Part shown: positions 13,447-39,930 of the stretch, piece after piece | How the letters are laid out: every line of letters begins with the position of its first letter | Numbering within the stretch: the stretch's first letter is position 1 | Origin: Pseudomonadota bacterium | GTDB lineage: Bacteria > Pseudomonadota > Gammaproteobacteria > Steroidobacterales > Woeseiaceae | DNA: 43,211 nt | Reading direction: 5' to 3' | Assembly (NCBI GenBank): GCA_022572185.1 | Contig: JACZWL010000028.1 | Span: 1 to 43,211, forward strand | Position numbers and translations under genes: made by a program | Notes under the pieces: model-generated | Told to the model about the DNA's origin: nothing | Databases searched by the model: none | The model's input: only the letters and a program-made list of their open reading frames with translations

Positions 13447-13451
13447 GAATT

Positions 13452-14453
13452 TTATCCGAGCATCTGGTGCAGCACTGCCATCTGCGCCAGCATGCGATTG
13501 CGGGCCTCATGGATGACGACGCTTCTCAGGCCGTCGAGTACGCGTTCGCTGACCACGACGCCGCGCCGTACGGGCAGGCAATGCATGAACCTGCAGTCGC
13601 TTCTTGCATTGTCGAACCATGGCTCATCGATGCACCAGTGGACCAGTTCGCGGCGCAGCTCCTCGTCCGCCGCCTTGTCACCATAGTGTCTCGTCGAGGA
13701 CCAGGATTTTGCGTAAATGATGTGGGCGCCTTCCATCGCCTGCACCCGGTCATCGGTCTCGCACAGCGAACCACCCGAGGCCTCGGCCGCCTTCCTGGCC
13801 TTGTCCATTATTGCTTCGGGCAGCTCAAAGCCGTCGGGTCGCAGCACGGTCACGTCCATGCCGCGCATCGCCGCCATGTGTATGGAGGCCGCCGGCACGG
13901 CGAGCGGCAGTGACATCGGGTGATATGCCCAGCTCAGCACGAATTTCCCGCTTTTCGTGGGGATGCCCAGGTCATCGAGCGTCTTCCAGTCGGCCAGGCT
14001 CTGGCAGGGGTGATTGCTTGCTGACTCCATATTGATGTACGGCGTGTCGATCAGTGCGATCAAGGAGGAGAATTCGGTGTCCGCAAGATCGTGTTCCAGG
14101 TTCCTGCGCTCGGCAAAGGCACGAATGCCGATCGCGTCTCCGTAGGAAGCGATCACAGGCACGGCTTCACGAATATGTTCGGCCGCGGCGCCGTCCATGA
14201 CGATGCCCGGCCGCGTTTCGAGTCCGTGAATCGACATCTCCGGCGAAATCACGAATGAGCCGCCGCCGAGCCTGGTCATGGCGGCCTGAAAAGATGCCAG
14301 CGTTCTCAAGGACGGGCTCAGGAAGAGCAACGACAGCACTTTGCCCTTGAGCGCCTCTGGCTCCGGCTTTTCGTCGAGCCGGTTCGACAATTCAAGCAGC
14401 GCAGAAATCTCTTCTGTTGAAAAGTCGGCAAGATCGTTAAATGCCTTCATCAT
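13452..14453 (-). CDS. argF': N-acyl-L-ornithine transcarbamylase (AOTCase/SOTCase group)
   Basis: Transfers carbamoyl phosphate to an N-acylated ornithine, giving N-acylcitrulline, instead of to free ornithine. Support comes from the phosphate loop SPSLRT (51-56, numbering from 14468), the VMDG motif with EH two residues later, SNHPCQSLAD, WAYHPMSLPLAVP and FMHCLPVRR, all like the acetyl- or succinylornithine enzymes rather than ordinary OTC. The residue that sets acyl specificity, by my alignment of MDGxxxEH, is Ala96, where Xanthomonas AOTCase has Glu and Bacteroides SOTCase has Pro. The start is ATG 14453 or 14450 because AGAGGA lies just upstream; an ATG at 14468 is possible. Neighbours are argD (6 bases from the outermost start) and argB. 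Confidence 0.9.
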   Translation of the reverse strand: MMKAFNDLADFSTEEISALLELSNRLDEKPEPEALKGKVLSLLFLSPSLRTLASFQAAMTRLGGGSFVISPEMSIHGLETRPGIVMDGAAAEHIREAVPVIASYGDAIGIRAFAERRNLEHDLADTEFSSLIALIDTPYINMESASNHPCQSLADWKTLDDLGIPTKSGKFVLSWAYHPMSLPLAVPAASIHMAAMRGMDVTVLRPDGFELPEAIMDKARKAAEASGGSLCETDDRVQAMEGAHIIYAKSWSSTRHYGDKAADEELRRELVHWCIDEPWFDNARSDCRFMHCLPVRRGVVVSERVLDGLRSVVIHEARNRMLAQMAVLHQMLG

Positions 14454-14473
14454 TGTTCCTCTAATCATTCCAT

Positions 14474-15658
14474 TTATGTTTTGGGCGCTATGGCGCCGAG
14501 TGCCTTCGCCAGGCGCCTGACATGCTCCGGCTGCAGCACCAGGGGCGGCAGTAACCTCAGCACACTGGGGTCGGCGCTGGTGCCGGTCAGTATGTCACGC
14601 TGCAGCAGTGCATCACGAATCTCGCCAGCCGGCCTGTCACAGACGAGGCCAAGCAAAAGACCCATGCCCTGGACCGATCGAACCGGCCCTGTGACGCAAT
14701 GCTCACGGATTTCAGCTTCCCGTCGTCGGACGTTCGCGAGCAGGTCTTCAGCCTTGATGGTTTCAATGACGGCGATGATGGCCGCGGCTGCAACCGGACC
14801 GCCACCGAATGTCGATCCGAGGCTTCCCAGGCCGACAGTTTTCGACACGCTCTCGCTGCAAAGCAGTGCGCCGCAGGGGATTCCACCGCCGAGCCCTTTG
14901 GCTGTTGTGAGCAGGTCCGGTTCTGCACGACAGGCTTCAATCGCGAAATAATGACCGGTACGGCCCATGCCGCATTGCACTTCGTCGGAAATTAACAGCG
15001 CACCGGTCCTTGAAGTGCCCTCGCGCAACGCCGCCACAAAATCGGCTGACAGATCGAAGGCGCCGGCGACACCCTGCACGGGTTCAAAAATCACGGCTGC
15101 AACGCTCTCATCGATCATTGATTCTGCGGCGGCAACATCGTTCCGTGGGATGAAATCAACCGCGAAAGGCGTGTTTGGAAAACCGTACCAGCTGTCAGCC
15201 GAGTTCCACGTCACCGCCCCGGCTGCCGCCGTGCGGCCGTGGAAACCGTGCGTCAACGCGAGGATTTTTTGTCGGCCCGTCGCCAGGCAGGCCATGCGCA
15301 GGGCATTCTCGTTCGCTTCAGCGCCGCTGTTGACGAAGAAAACCCTTGACAGGTTTTTCGGCGCAATCCCGACAAGCTGCTCCGCTGCAGCTGCCCGCAC
15401 GTCCAGCGCAACGGCGTTGCTTTGAAATATCAGCTGCCTGGCCTGTTCGCAGATGGCCTGCACGAGGCGCGGATGACCATGTCCGAGCGCTGCAACGGCA
15501 TGTCCGCCCCAGAAGTCCAGAATACGCTGACCACTCGTCGTGACAAGATCGCAGCCGGTGGCTTGCGCCGGCACGAATGGCAGCTGGCCATAAACCTGCA
15601 GCATAACGGCAGCTTCCCGCGTGCGTGGATCCTCTGATGCGCTGTTGGCAGTATTCAT
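14474..15658 (-). CDS. argD: Acetylornithine aminotransferase
   Basis: A class-III PLP transaminase of 394 residues converting N-acetylglutamate semialdehyde to N-acetylornithine. Visible features are SGAEANE (121-127), HGFHGR, LLISDEVQCGMGRTG and the Schiff-base lysine Lys254 in TTAKGLGGGIP. The length is typical of ArgD. It starts 4 bases after argC and ends just before the transcarbamylase, so all are one transcript. A broader role toward succinylated substrates or diaminopimelate is possible for ArgD enzymes but not shown here. Confidence 0.94.
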   Translation of the reverse strand: MNTANSASEDPRTREAAVMLQVYGQLPFVPAQATGCDLVTTSGQRILDFWGGHAVAALGHGHPRLVQAICEQARQLIFQSNAVALDVRAAAAEQLVGIAPKNLSRVFFVNSGAEANENALRMACLATGRQKILALTHGFHGRTAAAGAVTWNSADSWYGFPNTPFAVDFIPRNDVAAAESMIDESVAAVIFEPVQGVAGAFDLSADFVAALREGTSRTGALLISDEVQCGMGRTGHYFAIEACRAEPDLLTTAKGLGGGIPCGALLCSESVSKTVGLGSLGSTFGGGPVAAAAIIAVIETIKAEDLLANVRRREAEIREHCVTGPVRSVQGMGLLLGLVCDRPAGEIRDALLQRDILTGTSADPSVLRLLPPLVLQPEHVRRLAKALGAIAPKT

Positions 15659-15662
15659 CTGT

Positions 15663-16718
15663 TCAGGTCCATGCGGGTGATGCTGCAGTCAGGCCGCTGG
15701 ATTCAGACAATGACCAAAGCCGGTTCATCCATTGCAAGGCACCGCCGGCAGCTCCTTTAACGAGGTTGTCGATCGCGCTCATGACAACAACAGTATCGCC
15801 TTCGCAGCTGACGCCAATCCTGGCATCGTTACACGCAATGACGTCTTTCAGACGCGGAATTCCGTCGACGATGTTGACGAACTCGCTGTCTTCATAAAAT
15901 GAACGAAAGGCGTTTCGAACCTCGTCCGACGATACCGGGACTTTCATCCTGGCCTGCATGGTCACGTAAATGCCGCGTGCGAAAGGACCCGAATGCGGCA
16001 CGAAATGTACGGATGCTCTTGTCTGACAGCTTGCTTCAAGCAACGCTTCGATTTCGGGCACGTGACGGTGCAGCAGCGGTTTGTACGCATACAGGTTGCT
16101 GTGCCGTTCGGGATGATGCGTGCCGGCCTGCGGACTCCGCCCGGAACCGGTGCTGCCGGTAATGCCGCTGACAAAAAGTTCTTCGTTGACGACGCCTGAT
16201 TTCAGTAAGGGCACAGCTGCGAGAAGCACGGCTGTCGCGAAACATCCCGGATGCGCCGCATGCGGCGCATCCGGGACCGGGGCGTGTTCCGGTACGGCAC
16301 AGAAAAACTCCGGTATCAGGGCCGGCGCCGGATGTGGTATTCCATATACCGCCTCGTATTGCTCCGCGCTGGTGTAGCGAAAGTCTGCGGATGAGTCGAC
16401 CACATGAACATCAAGACCGCGATCAGCGGCTCCCTCGAGTGCCGCCGCAATGACAGGCGCTGAAGCGCCGTGCGGCGCAGCGGAGAACAGGGCAAGGTCG
16501 CCGCCTTTGTCCACTTTCTCGAGCCAGGCATCCGGACCGTCGAACGATACGCCGGAGTATGTGCGGGCCAGATTTGGAAAAACGTCCGCGATGGCGTCGC
16601 CGCGACGGCTATCGGACACTGCGGCGGCCAGTCGGAAGTGCGGGTGTGTTCCAAGCAGACGCAGGATTTCGCCGCCGACATATCCGCTTGCGCCGAGAAC
16701 GACTGCGGGGATGGTCAT
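15663..16718 (-). CDS. argC: N-acetyl-gamma-glutamyl-phosphate reductase
   Basis: NADPH-dependent reduction of N-acetylglutamyl phosphate to the semialdehyde. The 351-residue protein begins with the Rossmann motif GASGYVGGE (9-17). The catalytic cysteine is Cys159 in HPGCFATAVLL, and SGITGSTGSGR follows. The start ATG overlaps the stop of the upstream P-loop gene (ATGA), implying coupled translation, and argD follows after 4 bases. Confidence 0.96.
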   Translation of the reverse strand: MTIPAVVLGASGYVGGEILRLLGTHPHFRLAAAVSDSRRGDAIADVFPNLARTYSGVSFDGPDAWLEKVDKGGDLALFSAAPHGASAPVIAAALEGAADRGLDVHVVDSSADFRYTSAEQYEAVYGIPHPAPALIPEFFCAVPEHAPVPDAPHAAHPGCFATAVLLAAVPLLKSGVVNEELFVSGITGSTGSGRSPQAGTHHPERHSNLYAYKPLLHRHVPEIEALLEASCQTRASVHFVPHSGPFARGIYVTMQARMKVPVSSDEVRNAFRSFYEDSEFVNIVDGIPRLKDVIACNDARIGVSCEGDTVVVMSAIDNLVKGAAGGALQWMNRLWSLSESSGLTAASPAWT

Positions 16719-17779
16719 GATTTCAAGCGCTCCGTATCGGTCAGGAGATCGGCGATCGAATCGCCAAGCGTGACGCCGTCGCTGAGCGCGTTGATCGCGG
16801 GCAAAGACAATCGCTCTCTGATCTGATCGATCCCGACCGCGTTGTCGGTCGCCGGGCCGGTGATGACGACCGGCGCGATGTCGAATTGCTCCCTGAGAAT
16901 TCGTACGCCGCCCCAGGCAGCAACCGGATCGTTTGCGCAGAGAATGACGGCAGTAAAAGCGTCGCGTATGTCTTCATCTGCGAGTATTGCTTCAACGCCG
17001 TAAGCCCCGAGCAGACCGTCGCCAAGCTCGATTACGATGACATCGGGTTGCAGCTCGGCCAGGCTGCTAAGCAATGCGCGGGTGAGAGCCGGTCCGTTTT
17101 TTGCTGTCGTGGTCACGATGCCGAGATCCGAGAAGATCATCGAGTCAGCAGCGCCCGCGTCCTCCATCGCAAGAATATCCCGGCGCAATGAAACGCCGGT
17201 CGCTTTGCAAGCTGCGACCTTCATGCCACGGTGACGCAGGCGGCTGATGATTGCACAGGCGGCCGCCGTCTTGCCGGAATCCATGCAGGTACCGGCAAGC
17301 GCTATGACCGGTACACCCTGTGTGTCTAGTCGCGCGTTCTTATCGAGCTCTTTGGCACCGACTCGCGCAGGCACGCCGATGCGTTCGCCAAGGTAGGGAA
17401 AGTGCAGAACAGTGCCAAGTACTTCGCAATCGAAGGGCGCACCGACGTCCGGATTTGCGGAATCGCATAGTCCAAGAACACCACCAATATTCAGGATTTG
17501 AATCATGGAACCGACTTCGAGCTCCTGCGGCAAATGGCCCGAGTATCCGAGCAGCGCTTTTCGATGACCGAGCGCGCCGACAACGATATCGCCCTGGTTG
17601 ACGGTGGCCATTCTGCCGCTCGTCAGTTCAAGCTGGTTGTAACGTGTCTTGTTATTCAAGACGCGCACGGCAATGAGCACGCCTTCCTCACAGGGAATAT
17701 CGGCAGACAACCTGAGTTCGTGGCTCAGGTCACTGTGCTGGGCAACGGAGGCGACTTTATCCACGAAAATGCTGCGCAT
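16715..17779 (-). CDS. P-loop protein of unknown function inside the arginine operon (DUF1611-/dethiobiotin-synthetase-like)
   Basis: A 354-residue protein I cannot assign to a known arginine enzyme. Residues 1-150 look like a beta-rich domain. Residues 155-354 form a P-loop domain whose Walker A is GTCMDSGKT (163-171), the GTxxxxGKT spacing of dethiobiotin synthetases and DUF1611 proteins. It is followed by ACKATGVSLRRD and by DVIVIELGDGLLG. It begins 3 bases after argG and overlaps argC by 4, so it is translated with the arginine enzymes. One DUF1611 member, DgcN, has been reported as a D-glutamate N-acetyltransferase. Since this operon lacks a glutamate acetyltransferase, a related role here is an attractive but unproven inference. 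Confidence 0.85.
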   Translation of the reverse strand: MRSIFVDKVASVAQHSDLSHELRLSADIPCEEGVLIAVRVLNNKTRYNQLELTSGRMATVNQGDIVVGALGHRKALLGYSGHLPQELEVGSMIQILNIGGVLGLCDSANPDVGAPFDCEVLGTVLHFPYLGERIGVPARVGAKELDKNARLDTQGVPVIALAGTCMDSGKTAAACAIISRLRHRGMKVAACKATGVSLRRDILAMEDAGAADSMIFSDLGIVTTTAKNGPALTRALLSSLAELQPDVIVIELGDGLLGAYGVEAILADEDIRDAFTAVILCANDPVAAWGGVRILREQFDIAPVVITGPATDNAVGIDQIRERLSLPAINALSDGVTLGDSIADLLTDTERLKS

Positions 17780-17782
17780 TGT

Positions 17783-19003
17783 TCAGGCCTCTCCGGCGGA
17801 TGCGCCGGCCCGGGTCTGCAACAAGCCCGGCAAAGACAGAATACGTGCGTAACCGAGCGCATCCCCGGCGGTCCACTCGCCGGCGGCTTCCCCATACACG
17901 CCTTTGGTGGCGGCAAGCAGAGAGTATGGTGAGGTAACGCCATCGATAAAGAGATTGCCGGGCCGCAATGTGAAGCTGACCTGGCCCGTCACGCGCAGCT
18001 GCGACGAGGAGAGCAAAGCCTCGATGTCCCGGCACGCGGGATCCAGCTGCCTGCCCTCGTGTATGAGATCGCCGTAGACGGACGCGACGGTGTCCTTGAC
18101 ACGGGACTGCTGTGCACTCAAGACGAGTTTTTCAAGTTCACGATGTGCTGTGATCAGCGTAAGCGCTGCCGGCGCCTCAAACGCGACACGGCCCTTGGTA
18201 CCGAGAAGCGTATCGCCGAGATGAATACCCCTGCCGACAGCGTAGGACCCGGCAAGTATTTCGAGCTTCTCGATCAGCGCTACCGGATTCAGATTCTCGC
18301 CGTCCAGTGCCACCGGGATGCCGGCGTCGAAGTCCAGCGTGTGATGCGATGTGGCCTTCGGCTTGTCGAATGCGCCGGCCGACAACACCCAGGCTTGCTC
18401 CGGCAAAGACCGCTCGGAAGTCAGCGTTTCCTGGCCGCCAATCGTTATGCCCCACAATCCGCGGTTGATCGAGTACGCGGATCCCTGCGCGGGCAGCGGC
18501 AGGCCATGATCTTCAAGGTAACGACGCTGTTCCTCGCGGACCCAGTTGTTGTCCCTCACCGGCGCAAGAATTTCGAGGCCCGAGTTCAGTGTCCGCAGCG
18601 TGACCTCGAAGCGCACCTGATCGTTGCCGGCAGCCGTGCAACCATGTGCGACCGTCGCAACTCCCCTTGCGCTGGCAAGCTCGGCGAGGCGCGCAGCCTG
18701 AAGACCGCGCTCCGCGCCGACACATAAGGGATAAAATTGACCCCGACGCACGTTGCCGGCAATGAGATACCGCAAAACCGAATCGAAAAAGTCGTTTTTG
18801 CAATCGAGCAGCACATGTTCGATCGCACCGAGCCTGATTGCGCGATCCTCGAGAGCTGCTGCAGCCACGTCGTCAATACCGCCGGTATCGACCGTGGCCG
18901 TAATAACCTCGCGTCCGTAATTCTCTTTCAGCCACGGGACGCAGAATGACGTGTCCAGACCACCTGAAAAGGCAAGAATAATTGGAGATTTGGCGTCGGT
19001 CAC
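17783..19003 (-). CDS. argG: Argininosuccinate synthase
   Basis: Condenses citrulline with aspartate using ATP. The 406-residue protein starts with the PP-loop LAFSGGLDTS (10-19) and has GCTAAGNDQVRFE, the citrulline/aspartate binding region, in the first third. The start is GTG at 19003 with AAGGA about 9 bases upstream. It is the first enzyme gene after argR, 31 bases downstream. If the transcarbamylase product is acylcitrulline, a deacylase such as ArgE must act before this enzyme; none is in the window. Confidence 0.95.
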   Translation of the reverse strand: MTDAKSPIILAFSGGLDTSFCVPWLKENYGREVITATVDTGGIDDVAAAALEDRAIRLGAIEHVLLDCKNDFFDSVLRYLIAGNVRRGQFYPLCVGAERGLQAARLAELASARGVATVAHGCTAAGNDQVRFEVTLRTLNSGLEILAPVRDNNWVREEQRRYLEDHGLPLPAQGSAYSINRGLWGITIGGQETLTSERSLPEQAWVLSAGAFDKPKATSHHTLDFDAGIPVALDGENLNPVALIEKLEILAGSYAVGRGIHLGDTLLGTKGRVAFEAPAALTLITAHRELEKLVLSAQQSRVKDTVASVYGDLIHEGRQLDPACRDIEALLSSSQLRVTGQVSFTLRPGNLFIDGVTSPYSLLAATKGVYGEAAGEWTAGDALGYARILSLPGLLQTRAGASAGEA

Positions 19004-26870: not shown

Positions 26871-27500
26871 TTATTCACGGGGAAGGAGAAAGCCGTTGCC
26901 AAGATGCTCCAGGATGACACCCTCCGGCGTAATCTCCTTCACCACGGGGCCTTCCGCCAGTCGTTCGTGTTCCCGGTATTTGTTCATGTTGACAAACACG
27001 AATCGCTTCGCGGGCTGATCATTGTAGACATGGATGTCCAGGTGCAGGTCCGGTAACAAGAGAGTTCCATTCGCCCGAAGATCATTGAACGTCGCATAAG
27101 ATTCTGTGATCGTTGCCGCCAGTCTTGGTTTGGACACAGGGCTTGCTTCTACCACAGGGTTGTCAGCTGTCGATTGTTCCTCTGTGGCGCCAGTGACTTG
27201 TGGTGCTTGCGTGTTCTTCGCCTGTTCAACCATTTCTGAGAATGATGCCTCACGCTCAGGCTGCGCCCCGTCCGGTATTGCTTCGTCGGTCGCTGTGACG
27301 TCCGTTTGTGGCCGCGGGTCGGGTCGAAGCATGACTCCTGACAACACGATCAGGTTTACGGCAAGCAAGCCGCCGAGTACCCATAGCCAGCGCGGAGCAC
27401 GCGGCGAGTCCACCCCATCGGGTACGTCAGCGAAACCAGGCGCATTCTTTTGCTGGCGCTCGGTTTCAGACTTCTTTAACGCATCCAGGATAAATGACAT
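26871..27500 (-). CDS. gspB: General secretion pathway protein B (GspB)
   Basis: A 209-residue bitopic inner-membrane protein. It starts with the family's MSFILDALKKSETERQ, has one transmembrane helix (37-58), a Pro/Gln/Glu-rich periplasmic linker and a C-terminal GspB domain of about 80 residues. GspB works with GspA to place the type II secretion secretin through peptidoglycan. Its start codon overlaps the gspA stop by one base. No other type II secretion gene is in the window. Confidence 0.9.
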   Translation of the reverse strand: MSFILDALKKSETERQQKNAPGFADVPDGVDSPRAPRWLWVLGGLLAVNLIVLSGVMLRPDPRPQTDVTATDEAIPDGAQPEREASFSEMVEQAKNTQAPQVTGATEEQSTADNPVVEASPVSKPRLAATITESYATFNDLRANGTLLLPDLHLDIHVYNDQPAKRFVFVNMNKYREHERLAEGPVVKEITPEGVILEHLGNGFLLPRE

Positions 27501-29194
27501 CAGTAGTTCCCCGTGCGATTCATATCATCATCTTTGTTCGTCAGCCGTGGCTTGCCGTCCGGCGCAAGCGACGAATTGATGATGATCTGGGTCTGTTGTC
27601 CCGCAAGGCCGTCGACCTTCAGGCGGTGCTGCCGCTGAAAGTCCCTCAGTCTCTCTTCAAGTTCCCTGTCGAAGTAATCGAGCTCCGCAGATGCGGTGAC
27701 TTCCGGCTCATAGTCGGTATCGATCGCGGCAAGGCTCTGTCGCAGCCAGCGGACGTTTTCGTTACGCATGCCGGGCTTGATTGCCCTGGCATCGCCGTTG
27801 GGCGGCCGCCAGATCAGCAGGTATTCGCCAAACCAGAGCTTCGAGATCTCCTCAATCGAGTGAATAATGCGAGTCTCGCCGAGTGCGAGCTCACCTTTCT
27901 CACCGTCCAGAGACGCGAGAACCGGCTGATGAGTGTTGCCATTCCTGTCTGTCAGCGTCAGCACCACCGGCCGGTCGAGCTGGCGAATGCCGGTCCACGA
28001 ACCTCTCTGGAACAGGCAACTCAAGCCCGCCGTCTCGGCTTGCGAGCATGCCGTCCCGCCGCCGACCTGATATTCGATGCCCCACAGGCCAAACAGAGTA
28101 GCCATCGCGGAATTGGTGTCGGTGAATGCGCTTGCGTCGATCAACAAATCCTCGAGTAATGTGGTAACGGGCTCCAGGCCCGTGCTGTCTCCGGTCCCTG
28201 AGCCCGGTTCGGGGGAGGCTGCCTCGGTCCCGGACTCTGTTTTTCGGGTTTCCAGCGGCACCGAAAGCACCTCGGACGGTTGTTGTTGCTGCTGATTTGC
28301 CAAAGACCAGATACCCAGGGCAATGATGCCTGCCCCGGCGATTCCGAAAACCGGTACCGCCCATCTGAGCAGGCCGGTCGCATACTTCTGCCCGGATACC
28401 TCGGCCGCAGCCCTGCCAACGAGACGCTTTCCAATCTTCCTCGTTTCACGGCTGTAGGCGCCAAGCATCGCCCGGTCGCAGATCACGTTCATGATGCGTG
28501 GCACGCCGCCCGACAGATTAAATACTTCCAGCTTGGCTTCCGCGTCGAAGATCTCACCGAGGGCGCCCGCGACTTTGAGCCGATGGTCGATATACAGGCC
28601 TGCCTCGTTACGCGATAACGGCTCGAGGTGGTAACGGCCAGTCACACGCTGCGCCAGTTGACGGAGTTCATCGCGCGCCAGCGTGTCGCGAAGTTCCGGC
28701 TGTGCGATGAGGATAACCTGCAGCAGTTTCTGTTTTGCAGTCTCGAGGTTGGTTAACAGGCGAAGTTGTTCGAGTACCCCGTTGGAAAGATTCTGCGCCT
28801 CATCAACAAGCAGAATCGTACGACGGCCGCGGGCGTGCGCTGCAAGCAGATGGCGATTCAGGGCATCTACAAGCGCTATGACGCTGTGCCTGTCTTCGGG
28901 AAGCGGAATGCTCAGTTCCTGGCAGATGGCAATCAGGAATTCCAATTCGGTTAGCTGCGGGTTAAGAATGAGCGCGACATCAACTTCAGCCGGCAGGCGG
29001 CCGAGGACCGTACGAACGAGGGTTGTCTTGCCGGTGCCGACTTCGCCCGTCAGCTGAATAAATCCGCCGCTTTCGGAAATGCCGTACACGAGATGCGCCA
29101 ATGCCTCGCTGTGCCGTTCGCTCATGAACAGATAACGCGGATCGGGGGTGATCGCGAAAGGCTTTTCAGTCAGCCCAAAGAATTTCGTGTACAT
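27500..29194 (-). CDS. gspA: General secretion pathway ATPase GspA (ExeA)
   Basis: A 564-residue ATPase with a peptidoglycan-binding domain. It has a cytoplasmic AAA domain with Walker A GEVGTGKTT (50-58) and Walker B ILLVDEAQ (127-134), a single membrane helix around residues 270-290, and a periplasmic part ending in a PG_binding_1 domain (FQRQHRLKVDGLAGQQT near the end). In Aeromonas ExeA hydrolyses ATP and remodels the wall so the secretin ExeD can assemble. The partner gspB follows directly. Confidence 0.94.
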   Translation of the reverse strand: MYTKFFGLTEKPFAITPDPRYLFMSERHSEALAHLVYGISESGGFIQLTGEVGTGKTTLVRTVLGRLPAEVDVALILNPQLTELEFLIAICQELSIPLPEDRHSVIALVDALNRHLLAAHARGRRTILLVDEAQNLSNGVLEQLRLLTNLETAKQKLLQVILIAQPELRDTLARDELRQLAQRVTGRYHLEPLSRNEAGLYIDHRLKVAGALGEIFDAEAKLEVFNLSGGVPRIMNVICDRAMLGAYSRETRKIGKRLVGRAAAEVSGQKYATGLLRWAVPVFGIAGAGIIALGIWSLANQQQQQPSEVLSVPLETRKTESGTEAASPEPGSGTGDSTGLEPVTTLLEDLLIDASAFTDTNSAMATLFGLWGIEYQVGGGTACSQAETAGLSCLFQRGSWTGIRQLDRPVVLTLTDRNGNTHQPVLASLDGEKGELALGETRIIHSIEEISKLWFGEYLLIWRPPNGDARAIKPGMRNENVRWLRQSLAAIDTDYEPEVTASAELDYFDRELEERLRDFQRQHRLKVDGLAGQQTQIIINSSLAPDGKPRLTNKDDDMNRTGNY

Positions 29195-30465: not shown

Positions 30466-31356
30466 CTAGCTGCCTCTTTCGACGATGTAACGTGCAAGCC
30501 AGCGCAACGGTTCGGCATCGTCGCCGAATATCTCAAGTTCCTGCATGCCGGCCTGAAGAAGTGTTTCGCAGCGCTGTCTTGCGGCCTTGACGCCAAAGAG
30601 AGACGGGTAGGTGGCTTTCGCCAGACGCTGGTCTGCGCCGGCTTGCTTACCGATCACGTCTGTTTCTCCCTCCACATCAAGGATGTCGTCCCTGATCTGA
30701 AAAGCCATGCCGATGTTCCGGGAAAAACGCAGAAGCGCGGCCCGCCGGTCCGCCGGCAGGTCATCCGCAAGGCAGCTCACGGACATGACAGATGCTTCTA
30801 TGAGCGCGCCGGTCTTCAGCTCATACATCTGTTCGAGTTCCGATTCCGTCAGGACCCGGCCTTCCGACGAGAGATCAATCGATTGTCCACCGGTCATGCC
30901 GAGCGAGCCGCAGGCTTTCGCGATTGACTGGACAAGATGGATCAGTTTGTCCGGGCTGATGCCTGGCGCCGCAGCCAGAACCTGAAACGCCAACGGTTGC
31001 AACGCGTCCGCGGCGAGTATCGCCGTAGCCTCGTCGAATTTCCGGTGGACGGTCGGGTGTCCCCGCCGCAGGTCATCGTTGTCCATCGAAGGCAGATCGT
31101 CATGGACCAGCGAGAATGCGTGAATGAGCTCGATAGCCATCGCCGGCGCATCCAGGTCGACGGCGTCAAGTCTCAGGCATTCGCCCGTGGCATAGACGAG
31201 CAGCGGACGAATACGCTTGCCGCCATTCAAAACAGAGTAACGCATCGCCTCGTGCAGGCGACGGGGCGTCACGCCCGATTCCGGCAATGCCTCTTCAAGC
31301 TTGTCGGCAATGCGGCTCGTATACTCGGAAATTCGTTCTGAGAATGGCGTCGGCAA
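30466..31356 (-). CDS. ispA: Farnesyl diphosphate synthase
   Basis: A 296-residue trans-prenyltransferase condensing IPP with DMAPP and GPP. The first Asp-rich motif is DDLPSMDNDD (86-95) with the DDx4D spacing of IspA, and the second is DDILD (223-227). The frame is open further upstream, but the TTG at 31356 is preferred: GAGGA lies 7 bases before it and the predicted length then fits the family. It is divergent from the mevalonate operon, whose product it consumes, across about 140 bases. Confidence 0.93.
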   Translation of the reverse strand: MPTPFSERISEYTSRIADKLEEALPESGVTPRRLHEAMRYSVLNGGKRIRPLLVYATGECLRLDAVDLDAPAMAIELIHAFSLVHDDLPSMDNDDLRRGHPTVHRKFDEATAILAADALQPLAFQVLAAAPGISPDKLIHLVQSIAKACGSLGMTGGQSIDLSSEGRVLTESELEQMYELKTGALIEASVMSVSCLADDLPADRRAALLRFSRNIGMAFQIRDDILDVEGETDVIGKQAGADQRLAKATYPSLFGVKAARQRCETLLQAGMQELEIFGDDAEPLRWLARYIVERGS

Positions 31357-31427
31357 TGACCGGTCCTCGTCTGTATTTTTCCTGAGCAAGCGTACACTGA
31401 AACCATGCCGCCTGTGAAAGTCCCGCC

Positions 31428-31456
31428 TTCGTGCATTGTACGGGCTGGGATATAAT
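31428..31456 (+). promoter_or_regulatory. Sigma-70 promoter of the mevalonate operon
   Basis: A perfect TATAAT at 31451-31456 is preceded, after a 17-base spacer, by TTCGTG at 31428-31433 (3 of 6 matches). Transcription would begin near 31463, about 30 bases before the mvaD start. No operator or riboswitch is apparent. Confidence 0.65.
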
Positions 31457-31494
31457 CTCGCCCCCGAATAACCGGCTCCTGCCACCCCCGGACA

Positions 31495-32457
31495 ATGCTA
31501 ATGTGGTCACAAGCTCAGCCAAACATTGCGCTTGTAAAATACTGGGGCAAACGCGACGTCGCCAGAAACCTGCCGGCTGTTGGTTCGCTGTCCATCACGC
31601 TCGATGCGCTTTATTCGCGAATGTCTGTGGATTTTCTCGAGAATCGCGGGCTCGATGAGCTCGTTGTGAATGGCGAGGAGAACAGCGCGATGCTGTCGAG
31701 GGTATCAGGCTGCATCGACCGGATTGCGGGCAATGACCGACCGGCCGCGAGAATCCAAAGCGAGTCTAATTTTCCACTTGCAGCAGGTCTCGCATCATCT
31801 GCCTCGGCATTCGCGGCTCTCGTCTTGGCCACCTGTGAAAGCGTGAATCAGACTGCCGATACCCTGGCGATGGCGCGCATCGCAGGCAGTGTGTCCGGAT
31901 CTGCCGCCCGGTCGTTTTACGGAGGCTTCGTCGAGTTGGCTGCCGGCGACGAGAATATTGATGTTTGGTCAATTGTCGGTCCGGAAGACTGGCCCCTGAA
32001 GGTTGTTGTTGCGATTACAGAGACGGGACCCAAACCGCTGAGCTCCGGAGAAGCAATGATTCGCTGCGCGAAGACGTCTCCTTTCTACGATAGCTGGGTT
32101 GAACGTCAGCCTGACGACCTCGCAGCGGCGAGGGAGGCGGTCGACAAACGGGACTTCGAGCAACTGGCGGCGGTCTCCGAACATAATTGCCTCAAGATGC
32201 ACTCTGTGATGTGGGCCTCACGCCCTCCTGTTGTTTACTGGAATAATGCGACGATCGCCTGCATGGAGACGGTACGTGATCTGCAAAAAAAATCCGAGCC
32301 GGTGTTTTTTACAATAGACGCCGGGCCGCAACTCAAAGCTGTCTGTCTGCCGTCGGCCGAAGAGACCGTCAGAGATGCGCTCTCAGATACCGCTGGTGTT
32401 GTGACGACGTTGGTGAGTGGACTCGGTTACGGTGCACGTGTTTTGGAGCAATCATGA
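31495..32457 (+). CDS. mvaD: Diphosphomevalonate decarboxylase
   Basis: A 320-residue GHMP-fold enzyme making IPP from mevalonate diphosphate with ATP. Signature pieces are NIALVKYWGKR (10-20), the nucleotide loop PLAAGLASSASAF (94-106), SGSAARSFYGGF (134-145) and the catalytic Asp275 in FFTIDAGPQ. The start is ATG 31495, or ATG 31501 two codons later; neither has a strong ribosome site. It is the first gene of the operon, and its stop overlaps the next start (ATGA). Confidence 0.95.
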   Translation: MLMWSQAQPNIALVKYWGKRDVARNLPAVGSLSITLDALYSRMSVDFLENRGLDELVVNGEENSAMLSRVSGCIDRIAGNDRPAARIQSESNFPLAAGLASSASAFAALVLATCESVNQTADTLAMARIAGSVSGSAARSFYGGFVELAAGDENIDVWSIVGPEDWPLKVVVAITETGPKPLSSGEAMIRCAKTSPFYDSWVERQPDDLAAAREAVDKRDFEQLAAVSEHNCLKMHSVMWASRPPVVYWNNATIACMETVRDLQKKSEPVFFTIDAGPQLKAVCLPSAEETVRDALSDTAGVVTTLVSGLGYGARVLEQS

Positions 32458-33473
32458 CAGCCACTGTGGCAAGTGCCCCGGGAAAAATCGTCCTTTGTGG
32501 CGAATACGCGGTGCTCGACGGAGCACCCGCGATTTGCATGGCAATCAACAGACGGGCGCGCGCCAAAGTGGGCGCTGTCGATACCGACTATCATACGGTT
32601 CGTACTAGCGGATATATCGACGGAGAGTGGAGGTTTCGAACTGACAGGAACGGGAGCTTCGAGTGGATCGGGAGCGAGCCGCCCGCGGGCGGCCTCGATT
32701 TGCTGCAACAAGTCTGGAAGACAACTGGCATCAACGGGAGGTTCGATGTCACATTGGATACGGGAGAGTTTCTCGATCCTGTCAGCCACTCGAAACTCGG
32801 ACTCGGGTCGAGTGCAGCACTGACGGCCGCCCTGGTCACTGCGCTGTTCGACGTGACTAGCAATCCTGGTGATGCGGGCATACAGGCCGTTAAGGCACAC
32901 CGGCTTTTCCAGCAAGGCCGGGGAAGCGGCGTCGATATCGCGGCAAGCCTCAATGGTGGCGTCATTGAGTACCGTATGCAGGAATCCGGAGTCGGCCGCT
33001 CATTGCCCTGGCCTGCCGGACTCGAGTACGCGGTGCTATGGAGCGGCCGGCCGGTGAGTACGAGCGAAAAGCTCAGGAAGCTCGATGAAGGCTGCCGAAA
33101 TAGTAGCTCCGGGGCAAGCATGGCTTGTCTGATCGACGCTTCGGAAGCGACTGCAAAGACCTGGGCAGCAGGCAGCACGGCCGAGCTGTTGGCAGAATTT
33201 CATCGTTATGTTGATGTCCTCAAGCAATTCGATGTTGACCATGATCTCGGCATATTCGATGCTGGGCACAGGGAGTTGGCGGACGCCGCGGCACAACGAA
33301 ACGTAGTTTACAAACCCTGCGGTGCGGGTGGCGGCGACACCGGCATAGTGTTTGCTACTGACAGGCAGGCCATCGCAGATTTCACTGACCTTGCCGGAGA
33401 GGCTGGTTTTCGATTACTGGACGTCTTGCTGGAGGCGCGGGGCGTACTTTTTGAAAACCGAGCAATTCATTGA
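32454..33473 (+). CDS. Phosphomevalonate kinase (GHMP type)
   Basis: A 339-residue kinase converting mevalonate 5-phosphate to the diphosphate. It has the GHMP motifs SAPGKIVLCGEYAVLDG (7-23), LGLGSSAALTAAL (115-127), the catalytic Asp in GRGSGVDIA (155-163), and YKPCGAGGGDTG near residue 290. The SGVDIAAS and YKPCGAGGGD wording is that of bacterial phosphomevalonate kinases rather than mevalonate kinase, and mevalonate kinase is already encoded downstream. It overlaps mvaD by 4 bases and the next gene by 4. Confidence 0.9.
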   Translation: MTATVASAPGKIVLCGEYAVLDGAPAICMAINRRARAKVGAVDTDYHTVRTSGYIDGEWRFRTDRNGSFEWIGSEPPAGGLDLLQQVWKTTGINGRFDVTLDTGEFLDPVSHSKLGLGSSAALTAALVTALFDVTSNPGDAGIQAVKAHRLFQQGRGSGVDIAASLNGGVIEYRMQESGVGRSLPWPAGLEYAVLWSGRPVSTSEKLRKLDEGCRNSSSGASMACLIDASEATAKTWAAGSTAELLAEFHRYVDVLKQFDVDHDLGIFDAGHRELADAAAQRNVVYKPCGAGGGDTGIVFATDRQAIADFTDLAGEAGFRLLDVLLEARGVLFENRAIH

Positions 33474-35710
33474 GTGATTCACGAATAGCTGCTTTCTATC
33501 GGAAGAGCATCGCAGACAGAATCGAAGCACTGGTGGCTCGCAAGCTGATCGATGCGGCGGACGCGAGCGCCCTGTTGGAAGACGGCCAGCTACTTACGCC
33601 GGAACTCGCCGACAAGATGATTGAAAACGTGATCGGTGTGTTCGGGCTACCGTTCGCCACCGCGCCCAATTTCCGCGTCAACGACCGCGATTACATCGTG
33701 CCGATGGTCGTCGAAGAGCCGTCTGTCGTGGCAGGCGTTAGCAGTGCGGCAAAAACGGCCAGAATAGCCGGAGGATTCAAAGCCACGTCGACCGACCCGG
33801 TGCTTATCGGGCAGATTCAACTGGTCGACATTGCGGAACCAGATCCCGCAGTGCAAGCGCTGTTCGCTGCAAGTGACGAGCTCATTGAACTTGCGAACGA
33901 CCTGCAACCGAATCTGCTTGCCCGCGGGGGCGGCGCCAGGGAAATCGAACTCTTCAAGTACCGTTTGCCGGATGGCAAGTGGACCGTCGTATTGCATGTG
34001 CTCGTTGACACGCGGGATGCGATGGGCGCGAATATCGTCAACACGATTTGCGAGGGAATTGCGCCACGCGTGGAAGCAATCGCGTCAGGCAGGGCGTGCC
34101 TGAAAATACTGTCAAACCTGGCGGACAAATCACTCGTGACTGCGAGCGTCAAGATACCACTGGCAGGGCTCGCCCGGGAGGGGTTCTCTGCCGATGCCGT
34201 GCGTGATGGCATAGTCCTGGCGAACGAGATCGCGAATATAGATCCGTATCGGGCAGCCACCCACAACAAGGGCATCATGAATGGAATCGATGCCGTTGCA
34301 ATCGCTACGGGTAATGACTGGCGCGCCGTTGAAGCAGCCGCCCATGCTTATGCGGCTCGCGGTGGCACGTACCGCGCGTTGACCAGCTGGACTGTCGAGT
34401 CCAACGGCGATCTGTACGGCGAAATTATCATACCCATAAAAGTGGGTGTGGTCGGCGGCTCCCTGAAATCGAACCCCGCGGCTTCCATCGGGCTCAGGAT
34501 TGCGGGGACAAAGTCGGCAACGGAGCTGGCCGAGCTCATGGGTGCCGTCGGCCTCGCACAGAATTTCGCCGCACTGGGGGCGCTCGTTACGGAGGGAATT
34601 CAAAAAGGTCATATGAGCCTGCATGCCCGCAGCGTTGCCGTAAGTGCGGCAACTCCAGCGGAGCTTTTTGATCAGGTCGTCGAAGGCATGGTCGACAGCG
34701 GGGACGTTAAACGCTGGAAGGCGCATCAACTCATTGACGAACTCCAGGACAAGGCCGAAACGAAAGATACCGACAGTATTTTCGAGAACGCGGTTCACGG
34801 CACGGCTTCAGGCAAAGTCATTCTCCTGGGTGAACATGCAGCCGTTTATGACCGGCATGTATTGGCGTTGCCGCTTGAGTCTGCGGTAACGGCAGCGATT
34901 GTAGAAACGCAGGCCGGCATCAATTTGTCCATACCCGATTGGGACATCGAACAAAGCTTTACGGTGAAAAACCCGGCACGGGGCGGTGCTGGTGAAGCAC
35001 TGGCGCTGATTATGCGCCAACTCGGCGCCGCTGATCGGGGATTCGACATTCGTGTTCGGTCACGTATTCCGGTTGCGATGGGACTCGGTGCTTCGGCAGC
35101 GCTGGCCGTGGCGATCATCCGGGCCTTCGACAAGTTGCTCGGCCTCGACATGGACAACGGGGCCATTGAAAAACTGGCGTTTGAGTGCGAAAAGCTGGCT
35201 CACGGTATGCCTTCCGGTATCGATAATAATATAGCGACTTATGGTGAGCCGGTGCTGTATAGCAAGAGTAGCGCTACCCGAACCAAGCCCATACCGCTGG
35301 CCGAACCGCCACCGATTGTCATCGCGTCAAGCGGAATTCGGGGCGCAACCAAAGAGCAGGTCGCCGGCGTCCGCTCCCGTTTTGAAAAAAATACGGAGCT
35401 TTATACGACGATTTTCGATGAGATCAATGAGATGAGCATTGCGGGCGCCGTGGCATTGAAGGACTGCGATTACGACACGCTGGGTTCCTTTATGAATGTC
35501 TGCCACGGTTTCCTGAATGCGCTGCAGGTCTCGACACCGGAATTGGAAAAAATGGTTGAGATTGCCCGTGCGAACGGCGCGATCGGCGCTAAGCTCACCG
35601 GCGCCGGGGGCGGTGGCTCGATCGTGGCAATATGTCCGGACAAAGTGTCCGAGGTTGCGCAAGCGCTGCATGCGGCAGGTTATCAAATAATACGGATGAG
35701 GGACCGCTAG
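33470..35710 (+). CDS. mvaA: Fused class II HMG-CoA reductase and mevalonate kinase
   Basis: A single 746-residue frame. Residues 1-425 are a class II HMG-CoA reductase that can be numbered as in Pseudomonas mevalonii: Glu83 (VEEPSVVAG), Lys267 (ATHNKGIMNG), Asp283 (ATGNDWRAVE) and His381 (GHMSLHARS), plus the DAMGAN loop (183-188). After a short charged linker (about 426-443), residues 444-746 are mevalonate kinase: GKVILLGEHAAVYD (448-461), VAMGLGASAALA (535-546), the catalytic Asp585 in GMPSGIDNN, and KLTGAGGGGS (708-717). The chain would make mevalonate and phosphorylate it. The start is TTG at 33470 overlapping the previous stop; residues SDSRIAAF match the reductase N-terminus. No frameshift or internal stop separates the halves. 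Confidence 0.96.
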   Translation: MSDSRIAAFYRKSIADRIEALVARKLIDAADASALLEDGQLLTPELADKMIENVIGVFGLPFATAPNFRVNDRDYIVPMVVEEPSVVAGVSSAAKTARIAGGFKATSTDPVLIGQIQLVDIAEPDPAVQALFAASDELIELANDLQPNLLARGGGAREIELFKYRLPDGKWTVVLHVLVDTRDAMGANIVNTICEGIAPRVEAIASGRACLKILSNLADKSLVTASVKIPLAGLAREGFSADAVRDGIVLANEIANIDPYRAATHNKGIMNGIDAVAIATGNDWRAVEAAAHAYAARGGTYRALTSWTVESNGDLYGEIIIPIKVGVVGGSLKSNPAASIGLRIAGTKSATELAELMGAVGLAQNFAALGALVTEGIQKGHMSLHARSVAVSAATPAELFDQVVEGMVDSGDVKRWKAHQLIDELQDKAETKDTDSIFENAVHGTASGKVILLGEHAAVYDRHVLALPLESAVTAAIVETQAGINLSIPDWDIEQSFTVKNPARGGAGEALALIMRQLGAADRGFDIRVRSRIPVAMGLGASAALAVAIIRAFDKLLGLDMDNGAIEKLAFECEKLAHGMPSGIDNNIATYGEPVLYSKSSATRTKPIPLAEPPPIVIASSGIRGATKEQVAGVRSRFEKNTELYTTIFDEINEMSIAGAVALKDCDYDTLGSFMNVCHGFLNALQVSTPELEKMVEIARANGAIGAKLTGAGGGGSIVAICPDKVSEVAQALHAAGYQIIRMRDR

Positions 35711-35717
35711 CACGAAG

Positions 35718-36302
35718 ATGTTGGAGAGCATGCCGGACAGCACAGATAAAGTCGTTTCGTCGGAGAGCGAAGAACTGATTCTCGTCGACGCGGGCGACAA
35801 CGAACTGGGATTTCTGAGCAAGGAGAAATGCCACGACGGTGACGGCATATTGCATCGTGCGTTTTCGCTCTTCGTGTTCAACAACAATGGTGAGCTCTTG
35901 TTGCAGAAGCGCGGTGCCGGAAAGCGACTGTGGCCGCTATTTTGGTCCAATAGCTGCTGCAGCCACCCGCGGAAAGGTGAATCGATGCAAGTGGCAACGC
36001 GTCGCCGCCTGCGGGAAGAACTCAGTATTGAGGCCAGCCTCGAGTTTACTTACAAGTTTTCCTACCGGGTGCAGTTCGGCGACCTTGGATCCGAGAATGA
36101 ACTATGTACTGTGTACTTGGGTAAGACCGGACAGGCGTTCTCCGCAAATACGCACGAGATCGCGGAGGCCCGGTATGTGTCCCGGGAAGCGCTACAAGGC
36201 GAATTGCAGACAAAGCCGGAAGAATTTACACCCTGGTTCAAAATGGAGTGGGAGCGGCTCTGCAAGGAGTTTGCCGAAAAGCTCGCTGCCTATGCAAAAT
36301 AA
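35718..36302 (+). CDS. idi: Isopentenyl-diphosphate delta-isomerase, type I
   Basis: A 194-residue Nudix-fold isomerase interconverting IPP and DMAPP, which a mevalonate pathway needs because it makes only IPP. The catalytic cysteine region is SNSCCSHP (77-84) and the glutamate region is ENELC (116-120). It has a hydrophilic N-terminal extension of about 20 residues; an ATG at 35730 has the better ribosome site (GGAGAG). It lies 7 bases after the fusion gene, ending the operon. Confidence 0.94.
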   Translation: MLESMPDSTDKVVSSESEELILVDAGDNELGFLSKEKCHDGDGILHRAFSLFVFNNNGELLLQKRGAGKRLWPLFWSNSCCSHPRKGESMQVATRRRLREELSIEASLEFTYKFSYRVQFGDLGSENELCTVYLGKTGQAFSANTHEIAEARYVSREALQGELQTKPEEFTPWFKMEWERLCKEFAEKLAAYAK

Positions 36303-36490: not shown

Positions 36491-37963
36491 TTAGCCGACG
36501 TAGCGGTAGTATTCGATACCGAGATCCTGAAACTGCCGCCGATCGGCCCTGCCGACTTTTTCTATAATGAATTCATTCTTCGGCAGGTAGTCCAGACCCC
36601 TTGCTCTGCGTCCGTCATGCAGCGCTTTGTATTGCTCGAAATCGAGATCAACCGAAAATTCCATCGCCTCGCTGAAACGAATCGACCTGGTCGCTTGCTT
36701 CCACTCTTCCGAAATGATCACGGGAATAACTTCCGCCGCGTCACCGCTGCCGTATCCGAGAGTCAGGATCTCCTCGCCGGCAAGATCGCGGTTTTCATCC
36801 AGTGCCTGCTCGAATCCCGCAGCCATCCATGCCGGAAGCGCGGCAGTATAAAGATTGCCCAGGTCCAACATCGTGTCGCTTCCGAGCGCGAGCTTGTCGA
36901 GAATCTCGCGGCGGTAATTTCGCGACGCACGGAAAATTCTAAACACTGCCATCGTCAACGGATAGGCTTCGTAATTAAGCTGCTCAGGATTAGCCAGTTC
37001 GGTAATTTCCGGTTTGCTGACCATTTCCTTTAACAGGGCGTCGGGTTCTATGCCGGCTTCGTAGCAATAGGATGCGAGCTCCGCCCGGTCCTCCACACCG
37101 CCACTGCCCAGCGCAAACAAGTAGGCGACGGCCCAGCCGGTTTCCGGCATGCGGCGATAAGGCCTGTGCATGAACACGGTCTTCAGTGAGCGCAGGTATT
37201 CAGAGGCAGAGATTCCGCGCTTGCTGTACATGTCGTCGAGCGCGTGCAAGGTTTCATCGATGTAGCAGGTGGTCGAGTACTTGCCATTGAAGACGGGAAA
37301 GTCCTGTACCTGATGACTTTCGCTCCGGTCCTGTCCGCAGAAACGCAGCATGGGCTTGCGAAAATCCATGATGCGATAGTCGGACGCTGCGCCGGAACGG
37401 CTCAAATCGACACTCGCGAGTTTCGGGTTCTCTTCGAGCAGCATGGCAACTGCACCGGCGCCCTGCGTTGGTTCACCACTGCTGCCGCGCGCATATTCGG
37501 CGATATCAGCGCAGACAACGATAGCCTGACCTCCTGCGCCGTCGAGCGCGAGGTGCCGGAGCGCACCTTTCATGCCATAGACGCCGCCCAGGCAGGCATG
37601 TTTGAACTCCGGGACTTCACAGCTACGGGCAATCGGTGCTATGCCCTCCTTGATCAGTGCGCCATCGACCATCCCTTTGACAATGATCGCGCCCGCGGAA
37701 TTATCCGTGCTGGATTCGGTGCCAAGGCCCAGAAACTTGATGCGTGAGGGATCGATATCGTACTGCTTGATAAGGCGCATGACCGCCGTCGCCGCCAGCG
37801 TATAGACGCTCTGCTTAGGACCACGGACGCGGAAACTGCGCCCCACGATCTCACGGATTTTCGGCCAATGGTTGCCGGTCCAGTCGCACCAGTCTTCCAG
37901 CCACACCCGGTATGGCGGTATATATGCGGCGAGTCCGCTTATGCCTATATTCTTTTTGTCCAT
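36491..37963 (-). CDS. mvaS: Hydroxymethylglutaryl-CoA synthase
   Basis: Condenses acetyl-CoA with acetoacetyl-CoA to HMG-CoA, the committed entry to the mevalonate pathway. In this 490-residue protein the catalytic set is Glu83 (GTESSTDNS), Cys124 (KHACLGGVYG) and His266 (FMHRPYRRM), all in the expected order. It is about 100 residues longer than staphylococcal MvaS, with extra sequence in the second half. It is on the opposite strand, convergent with idi, so it must have its own promoter. The acetoacetyl-CoA thiolase is not in the window. Confidence 0.94.
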   Translation of the reverse strand: MDKKNIGISGLAAYIPPYRVWLEDWCDWTGNHWPKIREIVGRSFRVRGPKQSVYTLAATAVMRLIKQYDIDPSRIKFLGLGTESSTDNSAGAIIVKGMVDGALIKEGIAPIARSCEVPEFKHACLGGVYGMKGALRHLALDGAGGQAIVVCADIAEYARGSSGEPTQGAGAVAMLLEENPKLASVDLSRSGAASDYRIMDFRKPMLRFCGQDRSESHQVQDFPVFNGKYSTTCYIDETLHALDDMYSKRGISASEYLRSLKTVFMHRPYRRMPETGWAVAYLFALGSGGVEDRAELASYCYEAGIEPDALLKEMVSKPEITELANPEQLNYEAYPLTMAVFRIFRASRNYRREILDKLALGSDTMLDLGNLYTAALPAWMAAGFEQALDENRDLAGEEILTLGYGSGDAAEVIPVIISEEWKQATRSIRFSEAMEFSVDLDFEQYKALHDGRRARGLDYLPKNEFIIEKVGRADRRQFQDLGIEYYRYVG

Positions 37964-38571: not shown

Positions 38572-39930
38572 TTAGATCGAGAATGCCGCAAACAGGGCGG
38601 CAAAGGCAAACATCAGGCCGAAACCGATGAAGTATGACAACACGAGGAACATGAATTTGAGCGTCGTGATGAACTTACCCTGGCCGTACACGCGTTGCAT
38701 GGCCCTGAATAAATAGACAGGGATATAAAGGGATGCGCCGATCAGAGCGATGTCGGCCGCGCTTTCGGGAATACCGACAAGCGTCGCAAACCGCGCAAAC
38801 AGTATCTGCAGCGTTAGAATCAGGAAAAAGAAAGCATGGTAGTGCACGACGAAAAGCAGGTGCTCGACGTAGTAGCGCTTCGACAGCGGATACAGCACCC
38901 TGAGCACCAGCGCCATGAGCGGCAACAGGAAGAACAATGCGGCCGGGACGTTGTCCAGCAGTTTGTCGAGTAAGGCCCTGCCGTCATCGGCACGAATGCG
39001 CTCGCACATGATCTGGAGCCGCTCCGGCGTGATGCGTCTGGATAGCCACTGCGGTATGTCTGCCGACTCAATGTCGCTTACATCGCAGTCAAAATCCGAT
39101 TCTTCGCCTGCAGTATTCAGATTCGCGGAGTTCCCATCATCTCCATCTTGCGGATCTTCGGCCAGCTCCTTGTCACCGATGATGATGCCTTGCTCGGCCA
39201 GTTCCTGTGGCACCCCTTCACGGATCTCAGCGGCATTCTGAGCGGAATCTTCTGCCTGCTCCGTCGGTTCAGCCGCGGGTTCGAACAACAAACCGAGCTC
39301 TTCCCTCGGATCAAAAAATGCGATGAGGAAAAACACCACACTCAGTACAAGGTAGGTCCGAAAAGGCGGCATGAACCTCGCGCGGCGACCGAGCAGGTAG
39401 TCTTGCGTCAATTGACCCGGGTGAATGACGAGTGGCACCAGAGTTTGCCAAAGCCTCGAGTCCAGCTCGAAAAGATCGCCGAACGCATCACGAATCAATC
39501 CCCAGATACTGATGAGACGGCTGTGCGCCCGCTGGCCGCATTTGCGGCAGTACTGCCCACCGAGCGTGGTTCCGCAATTAAGGCAGGACGGCAGAGGCCT
39601 CAACTCTTCATCCGAATCGCCCGAGCGACGAAGAACACGGCGGCTTGCCTCGAATTGATCCGCAAACTGATCGATGCCCGACTGACGCATGGCGTTCGCC
39701 GGCCCGGCAAGATACTGCTCCAGGTCTTCCTCGCTGGCGAGGTAATAATGAGTGACGCGGCGGGCGCGGCCCTGTTCGTCGTCTTCCAGCTCAAAGGTCT
39801 CGGCTTTCAGAAAGCCCGGAATTTCGAGCATTTCCGTGACGTGAATCGCGAGCCAGGCGTCAAACGCTGCAACGATCTCCCGATCGACATTGAACGTAAC
39901 TTCGTAGATGGGCCCTGCTGTGTATGACAT
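38572..39930 (-). CDS. DUF4286-DUF3667 fusion membrane protein
   Basis: A 452-residue protein. Residues 1-100 match DUF4286, a small ferredoxin-like alpha/beta domain (YEVTFNVD ... FDAWLAIHVTEML ... VTHYYLASEEDLEQYL). Next comes a zinc ribbon, Cys116-x2-Cys119 ... Cys128-x2-Cys131, and then the DUF3667 membrane domain with helices near residues 190-210, 325-345, 358-380, 390-410 and 425-450. An acidic loop of about 100 residues separates the first helix from the rest. The function is unknown; it lies in the inner membrane. Confidence 0.85.
   Translation of the reverse strand: MSYTAGPIYEVTFNVDREIVAAFDAWLAIHVTEMLEIPGFLKAETFELEDDEQGRARRVTHYYLASEEDLEQYLAGPANAMRQSGIDQFADQFEASRRVLRRSGDSDEELRPLPSCLNCGTTLGGQYCRKCGQRAHSRLISIWGLIRDAFGDLFELDSRLWQTLVPLVIHPGQLTQDYLLGRRARFMPPFRTYLVLSVVFFLIAFFDPREELGLLFEPAAEPTEQAEDSAQNAAEIREGVPQELAEQGIIIGDKELAEDPQDGDDGNSANLNTAGEESDFDCDVSDIESADIPQWLSRRITPERLQIMCERIRADDGRALLDKLLDNVPAALFFLLPLMALVLRVLYPLSKRYYVEHLLFVVHYHAFFFLILTLQILFARFATLVGIPESAADIALIGASLYIPVYLFRAMQRVYGQGKFITTLKFMFLVLSYFIGFGLMFAFAALFAAFSI

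Follow-up and report, generated by a model that had tools for sequence, protein, structure and literature searches.

The question raised by this locus is whether a class II HMG-CoA reductase (HMGR) and a mevalonate kinase (MVK) are genuinely encoded as one polypeptide and, if so, which role such a chain would have. In the window, i.e., the whole stretch of 43,211 nucleotides that was analysed, the frame is open over all 746 codons (Table 1), as the original prediction had stated. It begins with a TTG that overlaps the stop of the upstream phosphomevalonate kinase (PMK) gene as TTGA, the last two bases of the start being part of that stop codon.

Table 1. Coordinates of the fused gene, its parts and the neighbouring genes in the window.
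Feature	Position	Strand	Remarks
Farnesyl diphosphate synthase family	30466..31485	-	NF045485 exceeds cut-off
Diphosphomevalonate decarboxylase (MVD)	31495..32457	+	TIGR01240 exceeds cut-off
Phosphomevalonate kinase-like GHMP kinase (PMK)	32454..33473	+	Best model TIGR01220, 83.3 bits, under cut-off 165.7
HMGR-MVK fusion gene	33470..35710	+	746 codons plus stop, TTG start; Pfam and NCBIfam
Class II HMG-CoA reductase part, residues 1-432	33470..34765	+	E83, K267, D283, H381
Reductase C-terminal flap, residues 377-432	34598..34765	+	Three predicted helices; flap as described in an excerpt of PMC10070635
Linker, residues 430-438	34757..34783	+	pLDDT below 50
Mevalonate kinase part, residues 442-746	34793..35707	+	K449, S542, D585, K708, glycines 713-716
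Isopentenyl-diphosphate isomerase, type 1 (IDI)	35718..36302	+	Exceeds cut-off
HMG-CoA synthase-like protein	36491..37963	-	Pfam exceeds cut-off; TIGR01835 164.5 bits, under cut-off 360.35

The product of the fused gene matches HMG-CoA_red (residues 17–386), GHMP_kinases_N (509–591) and GHMP_kinases_C (662–738) of Pfam, all of which exceed the cut-off. The reductase half scores 369.9 bits against the class II HMG-CoA reductase model TIGR00532 of NCBIfam (cut-off 259.95), and the kinase half scores 240.2 bits against the mevalonate kinase model TIGR00549 (cut-off 163.05). Against a further mevalonate kinase model, NF003036 (PRK03926), the kinase half reaches 203.1 bits, which is under the cut-off of 403. 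Both TIGR00532 and TIGR00549 are matched by all of the fused proteins compared with them (39/39). The reductase residues E83, K267, D283 and H381 stand at the positions that they occupy in the P. mevalonii enzyme, as had been predicted, and the GHMP motifs of the kinase half, including the catalytic Asp585, are likewise present. These four residues, together with K449, S542, D585 and K708 of the kinase half, are identical in 78 of 78 aligned fused proteins, and both halves appear to be under selection. A Pfam scan (E 0.001) found no thiolase domain in the protein, which agrees with the earlier view that it is distinct from the thiolase–HMGR fusion MvaE. These sequence features support the identification of the gene as an HMGR–MVK fusion with two putatively intact active sites.

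It had also been considered that an efficient internal start might yield a separate kinase. In the window such a product is unlikely, as no in-frame ATG, GTG or TTG occurs between codon 408 and the start of the kinase part, and the closest ones are codons 382 and 407. The objection retains some force for other fused genes, since 53 of 78 have some start codon within the 30 codons before kinase Lys449, in eight of them together with a Shine-Dalgarno-like stretch, and a separate kinase may be made from some of these.

The AlphaFold2 model of the fusion, built with 39 sequences, has a mean pLDDT of 87.7 and a pTM of 0.64. Three flap helices are predicted at the end of the reductase (residues 377–392, 400–410, and 415–432), followed by the linker, which is predicted to be disordered, and by the kinase. 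Foldseek returned P. mevalonii HMGR (PmHMGR) chains first and then mevalonate kinases, one half per match, and all 42 of 42 PDB sequence matches also cover one half only.

The resemblance of the reductase half to the P. mevalonii class II enzyme (1qax) comprises 48–51% identity, the same catalytic residues and the three-helix flap; it does not extend to the cofactor site, nor to the placement of the fusion in a biosynthetic operon. According to an excerpt of PMC10070635, NADH use in P. mevalonii is determined by Asp146, Leu148, and Leu152, and NADPH use in E. faecalis by Tyr146, Pro147, Ser148, and Arg152. The reductase of the window has Gln146, Pro147, Asn148 and Arg152 and lacks all three of the NADH determinants, which sets it apart from the NADH-dependent degradative enzymes. 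Asp146 occurs in 0/87 fused versus 25/53 unfused reductases, and Arg152 in 85/87 versus 23/53; Pro147 with Arg152, or a close set, is common to two Myxococcota and the Bacillaceae sequences. The residues at positions 146 and 152 suggest that the fused enzymes most likely use NADPH, the site being of the NADPH type although the best-scoring model carries the name 'degradative'.

The genes around the fusion encode further steps of the same pathway, in the order MVD–PMK–[HMGR–MVK]–IDI on the plus strand, and the block is flanked by the genes for HMG-CoA synthase and farnesyl diphosphate synthase on the minus strand. The names PMK and HMG-CoA synthase are likely rather than certain, because both proteins score under their NCBIfam cut-offs. 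PMK lies directly upstream in 67 of 78 fused loci and IDI directly downstream in 66 of 78. The only other GHMP match in the same genome is a homoserine kinase, so that no mevalonate kinase besides the fusion was found in it. That it is also the sole HMGR of the genome was considered and dropped, since contig C58 encodes a second HMGR-type protein of 426 amino acids. This protein is distant from the fusion and nearest to class I enzymes (TIGR00533, 299.5 bits, under the cut-off of 441.8; best PDB match HMGR 6hr7), and with it present, the fusion need not be the only source of mevalonate. Distant full-width HMGR matches of 26–30% identity are found in three of the other 59 relatives as well. Bacterial homologues related to class I HMGR include fatty acyl-CoA reductases (FcrA; PMC11948995, in excerpt), and the class I-type homologue may be either an HMGR or an FcrA-like reductase. 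Class I-type homologues were noted on C58, in locus L002 (589–1869) and in locus L185 (4193–5473), where by eye a Rieske-type oxygenase-like gene lies beside them.

Several other genes of the window were noted in passing. An arginine cluster (11327–19003, minus strand) comprises argG, a gene of unknown identity, argC, argD, N-acetylornithine carbamoyltransferase (PRK04523, 316.3 bits; cut-off 288), argB and argH, and represents the N-acetylated route familiar from Xanthomonas; a 354-residue protein of this cluster (16715–17779) has only a weak match to MobB. The product of 27500–29194 (minus strand) is an AAA ATPase with C39-like and peptidoglycan-binding domains, which scores 270.7 bits against the XrtA/PEP-CTERM ATPase model, under the cut-off of 324.5, while the product of 38572–39930 (minus strand) combines DUF4286 and DUF3667 in one protein.

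Across the order to which the window belongs, 60 genomes were compared (its own and 59 relatives). Both halves are in one open frame in 44 of these, fragments at contig ends are seen in two, and the fusion is missing from the other 14. Of these 14, 11 carry IspG of the MEP pathway, which is found in none of the 46 genomes with the fusion; Dxr occurs in 10/60 genomes and never beside the fusion, and both the fusion and IspG are absent from three genomes. Outside the order, the fusion and IspG occur together in six of 20 fused genomes examined, i.e., in Cryobacterium (4/4) and in two Acidobacteriota genomes, so that a strict replacement of the MEP pathway holds in the window's order only. A class-wide search of 369 genomes (matches at E 1e-30) gave 29 matches, namely nine full-length fusions (the genome itself and two relatives from the set of 60 included), one fusion fragment, and 19 cases of HMGR alone. 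The best 80 loci from a contig database, which represent a ranking by similarity and not a frequency, comprise 42 whole fusions, two cut by contig ends, seven pairs of adjacent separate genes, and 29 in which HMGR is alone in its frame. Among 40 Calditrichota genomes, 32 carry the fusion at full length, six carry fragments and two have none; in the Microbacteriaceae, the family of Cryobacterium, it is found in 6/150 genomes. Going by record titles, the carriers comprise among others Woeseiaceae, Dyella, Salinisphaera, Calditrichota, Acidobacteriota, Cryobacterium, and one Planctomycetota bin. A sequence from a 'Nakamurella' bin groups with the gammaproteobacterial ones, and this bin may be misbinned. 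In the Cryobacterium loci (L068, L069, L072, and L081), the fusion cluster occurs with HMG-CoA synthase and the MEP-pathway IspG, and groups with Salinisphaera; this cluster was likely acquired. Fifty-six plasmid records match the query, none over 80% of its length, and no fused copy was seen among them. The fusion is thus common, occurring in several bacterial phyla, and is not a single oddity.

Quick trees, made without bootstrap, were calculated for each half. In the kinase tree the 88 fused rows group together as one clade, apart from 32 unfused ones, with moderate support (SH-aLRT 95; 84 once four long rows are left out), and in the reductase tree 87 fused rows and two contig-cut ones form one clade (SH-aLRT 99), to which two Myxococcota rows are closest (92). 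Because each half forms one clade, a single origin is likely. One of the two Myxococcota rows is the Myxococcaceae locus L071, in which HMGR and MVK genes share a frame and are parted by just one TGA (4841–4843), and in Bacillaceae loci the two genes are adjacent and separate; both arrangements fit the loss of one stop codon between neighbours. We propose that the fusion probably arose once in this way and then spread between phyla.

In our judgement, with a probability of roughly 0.88, the gene encodes a bifunctional enzyme with a biosynthetic role in the mevalonate pathway. Its class II reductase, at the N-terminus, would convert HMG-CoA to mevalonate, with NADPH as the most likely reductant. 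The kinase, carried on the end of the reductase's mobile flap, would then phosphorylate the mevalonate with ATP, and the products of the neighbouring PMK and MVD genes would carry the resulting mevalonate 5-phosphate on to IPP. The active sites of class II HMGR lie at the dimer interface, and since this is so, the chain would form a dimer or larger assembly through its reductase. The benefit might be a fixed 1:1 dosage and the closeness of both steps. Both activities are predicted from sequence; the reading draws on the joined frame, both folds in sequence and model, the catalytic residues, the operon, the single clade, and the lack of IspG alongside the fusion in the window's order. Counted against it are the PRK03926 score, the second HMGR-type protein on C58, the three genomes with neither fusion nor IspG, and the co-occurrence with IspG in Cryobacterium and Acidobacteriota.

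An alternative that we regard as quite possible, if short of probable, is that the fusion merely reflects operon order, translationally coupled neighbours having lost their stop codons without catalytic benefit and their products having tolerated it. The overlap of the PMK stop with the HMGR start in the window and the one in-frame TGA that parts the L071 genes would suit such a history, and so would the longer fusions. PMK–HMGR–MVK is found in one frame in L180 (2561–6799, minus strand) and L181 (3665–7063), from genomes G043 and G056 of one genus, and HMGR–MVK–IDI in L179 (2217–5210), from genome G007. PMK acts after MVK in the pathway and is next in line, but the step of IDI is not the next one; fusion thus follows gene order. 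However, the HMGR–MVK joint has been kept through deep divergence, whereas the PMK and IDI joints are seen in two genomes and one genome, respectively, and neither tree shows a fission within its fused clade. Other candidates for longer chains were rejected: G649 (open frame 810) encodes an ordinary HMGR preceded by a stretch free of stop codons, and the long N-terminal stretches of L072, L171, L027, and L011 yielded no second enzyme and appear by eye to be high-GC out-of-frame sequence.

A more demanding proposal, which we consider unlikely, is that the bifunctional enzyme channels its intermediate, mevalonate moving from reductase to kinase within the complex. In favour are that the two reactions follow one another directly and that the joined form is kept across phyla. 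Moreover, the flap moves between open and closed positions over the active site of the reductase (PMC10070635, in excerpt), and as the kinase begins after flap and linker in the model, it would be tethered to this mobile element. Yet H381 and the kinase are separated by anywhere between 21 and 120 residues in 78 fused proteins, the linker is predicted to be disordered and, with a pTM of just 0.64, no fixed interface is predicted; furthermore, a fusion to IDI exists although IDI is not the next step. A variable disordered linker and the IDI fusion would suit a simple tether as well. Three fused reductases (L039, L063, and L172) lack flap helices 2 and 3, an absence that takes two or more changes on the tree to explain; the model of L039 has one flap helix, then disorder, and then the kinase, in place of the three-helix arrangement. 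As an excerpt of PMC12292504 describes the flap as essential for catalysis in class II enzymes, these three would be an interesting exception. One could speculate, with still less confidence than for channelling as such, that mevalonate is passed to the kinase as the flap opens, that the chain is a growing assembly to which PMK or IDI has been added in some lineages, and that in L039, L063, and L172 the kinase replaces flap helices 2 and 3.

That one domain of the fused protein is dead or acts on another substrate is highly improbable. We know of no biochemistry of any fused HMGR–MVK member, and HMGR homologues with altered substrate do exist (FcrA; excerpt of PMC11948995), but the catalytic residues are invariant (78/78), the remaining pathway genes adjoin the fusion, the other kinase match of the genome is a homoserine kinase, and IspG is absent beside the fusion in the set of 60 genomes. 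An assembly or frameshift artefact at the junction, which the original prediction had named as a possible refutation, can be discounted almost entirely, for while the source is a draft genome of 99 contigs, the same joined frame recurs in 43 other relatives and in many separately assembled genomes, including isolates of Dyella monticola and Cryobacterium.

The bifunctional enzyme has partial counterparts among known systems. MvaE of Enterococcus faecalis also unites neighbouring steps of the mevalonate pathway, with a class II HMGR, on one chain (PMC10070635, in excerpt); there, HMGR forms the C-terminal part and is joined to the acetoacetyl-CoA thiolase that acts before it, whereas here it forms the N-terminal part and its partner is the kinase of the subsequent reaction. 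The kinase half shares the GHMP fold and motifs with the stand-alone mevalonate kinases MKbur (8teb) and that of Methanosarcina mazei (6mde), at 31–32% identity in the structure match, but neither of these is joined to a reductase. The folds of IspDF are unrelated to those of HMGR–MVK. IspDF of the MEP pathway is likewise a common fusion of two isoprenoid enzymes, but of another pathway and of non-consecutive steps, and a 2026 review names IspDF and MvaE as fusions (both from an excerpt of PMC13001223). The original prediction knew of no described HMGR–MVK enzyme, and searches of the open-licence full text of PubMed Central turned up no description of one; a term search of PMC11052028 gave no match. 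The two parts belong to known families; as far as searched, neither their union in one chain nor the single origin and spread of this architecture has appeared in print.

A whole-protein name taken over from the reductase model ('degradative') can obscure the kinase as well as the role in biosynthesis, and as a result genomes may be scored as being without mevalonate kinase. The natural variants, which include full and one-helix flaps, linkers from short to more than 100 residues, chains of three enzymes and genes that are in frame but separate, are a ready test set for whether the tethering of consecutive enzymes changes flux, and a single-chain HMGR–MVK would be useful for pathway engineering. 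The chain would represent a second natural way of fusing HMGR, with the next enzyme of the pathway and not a preceding one, in lineages most of which are without the MEP pathway.
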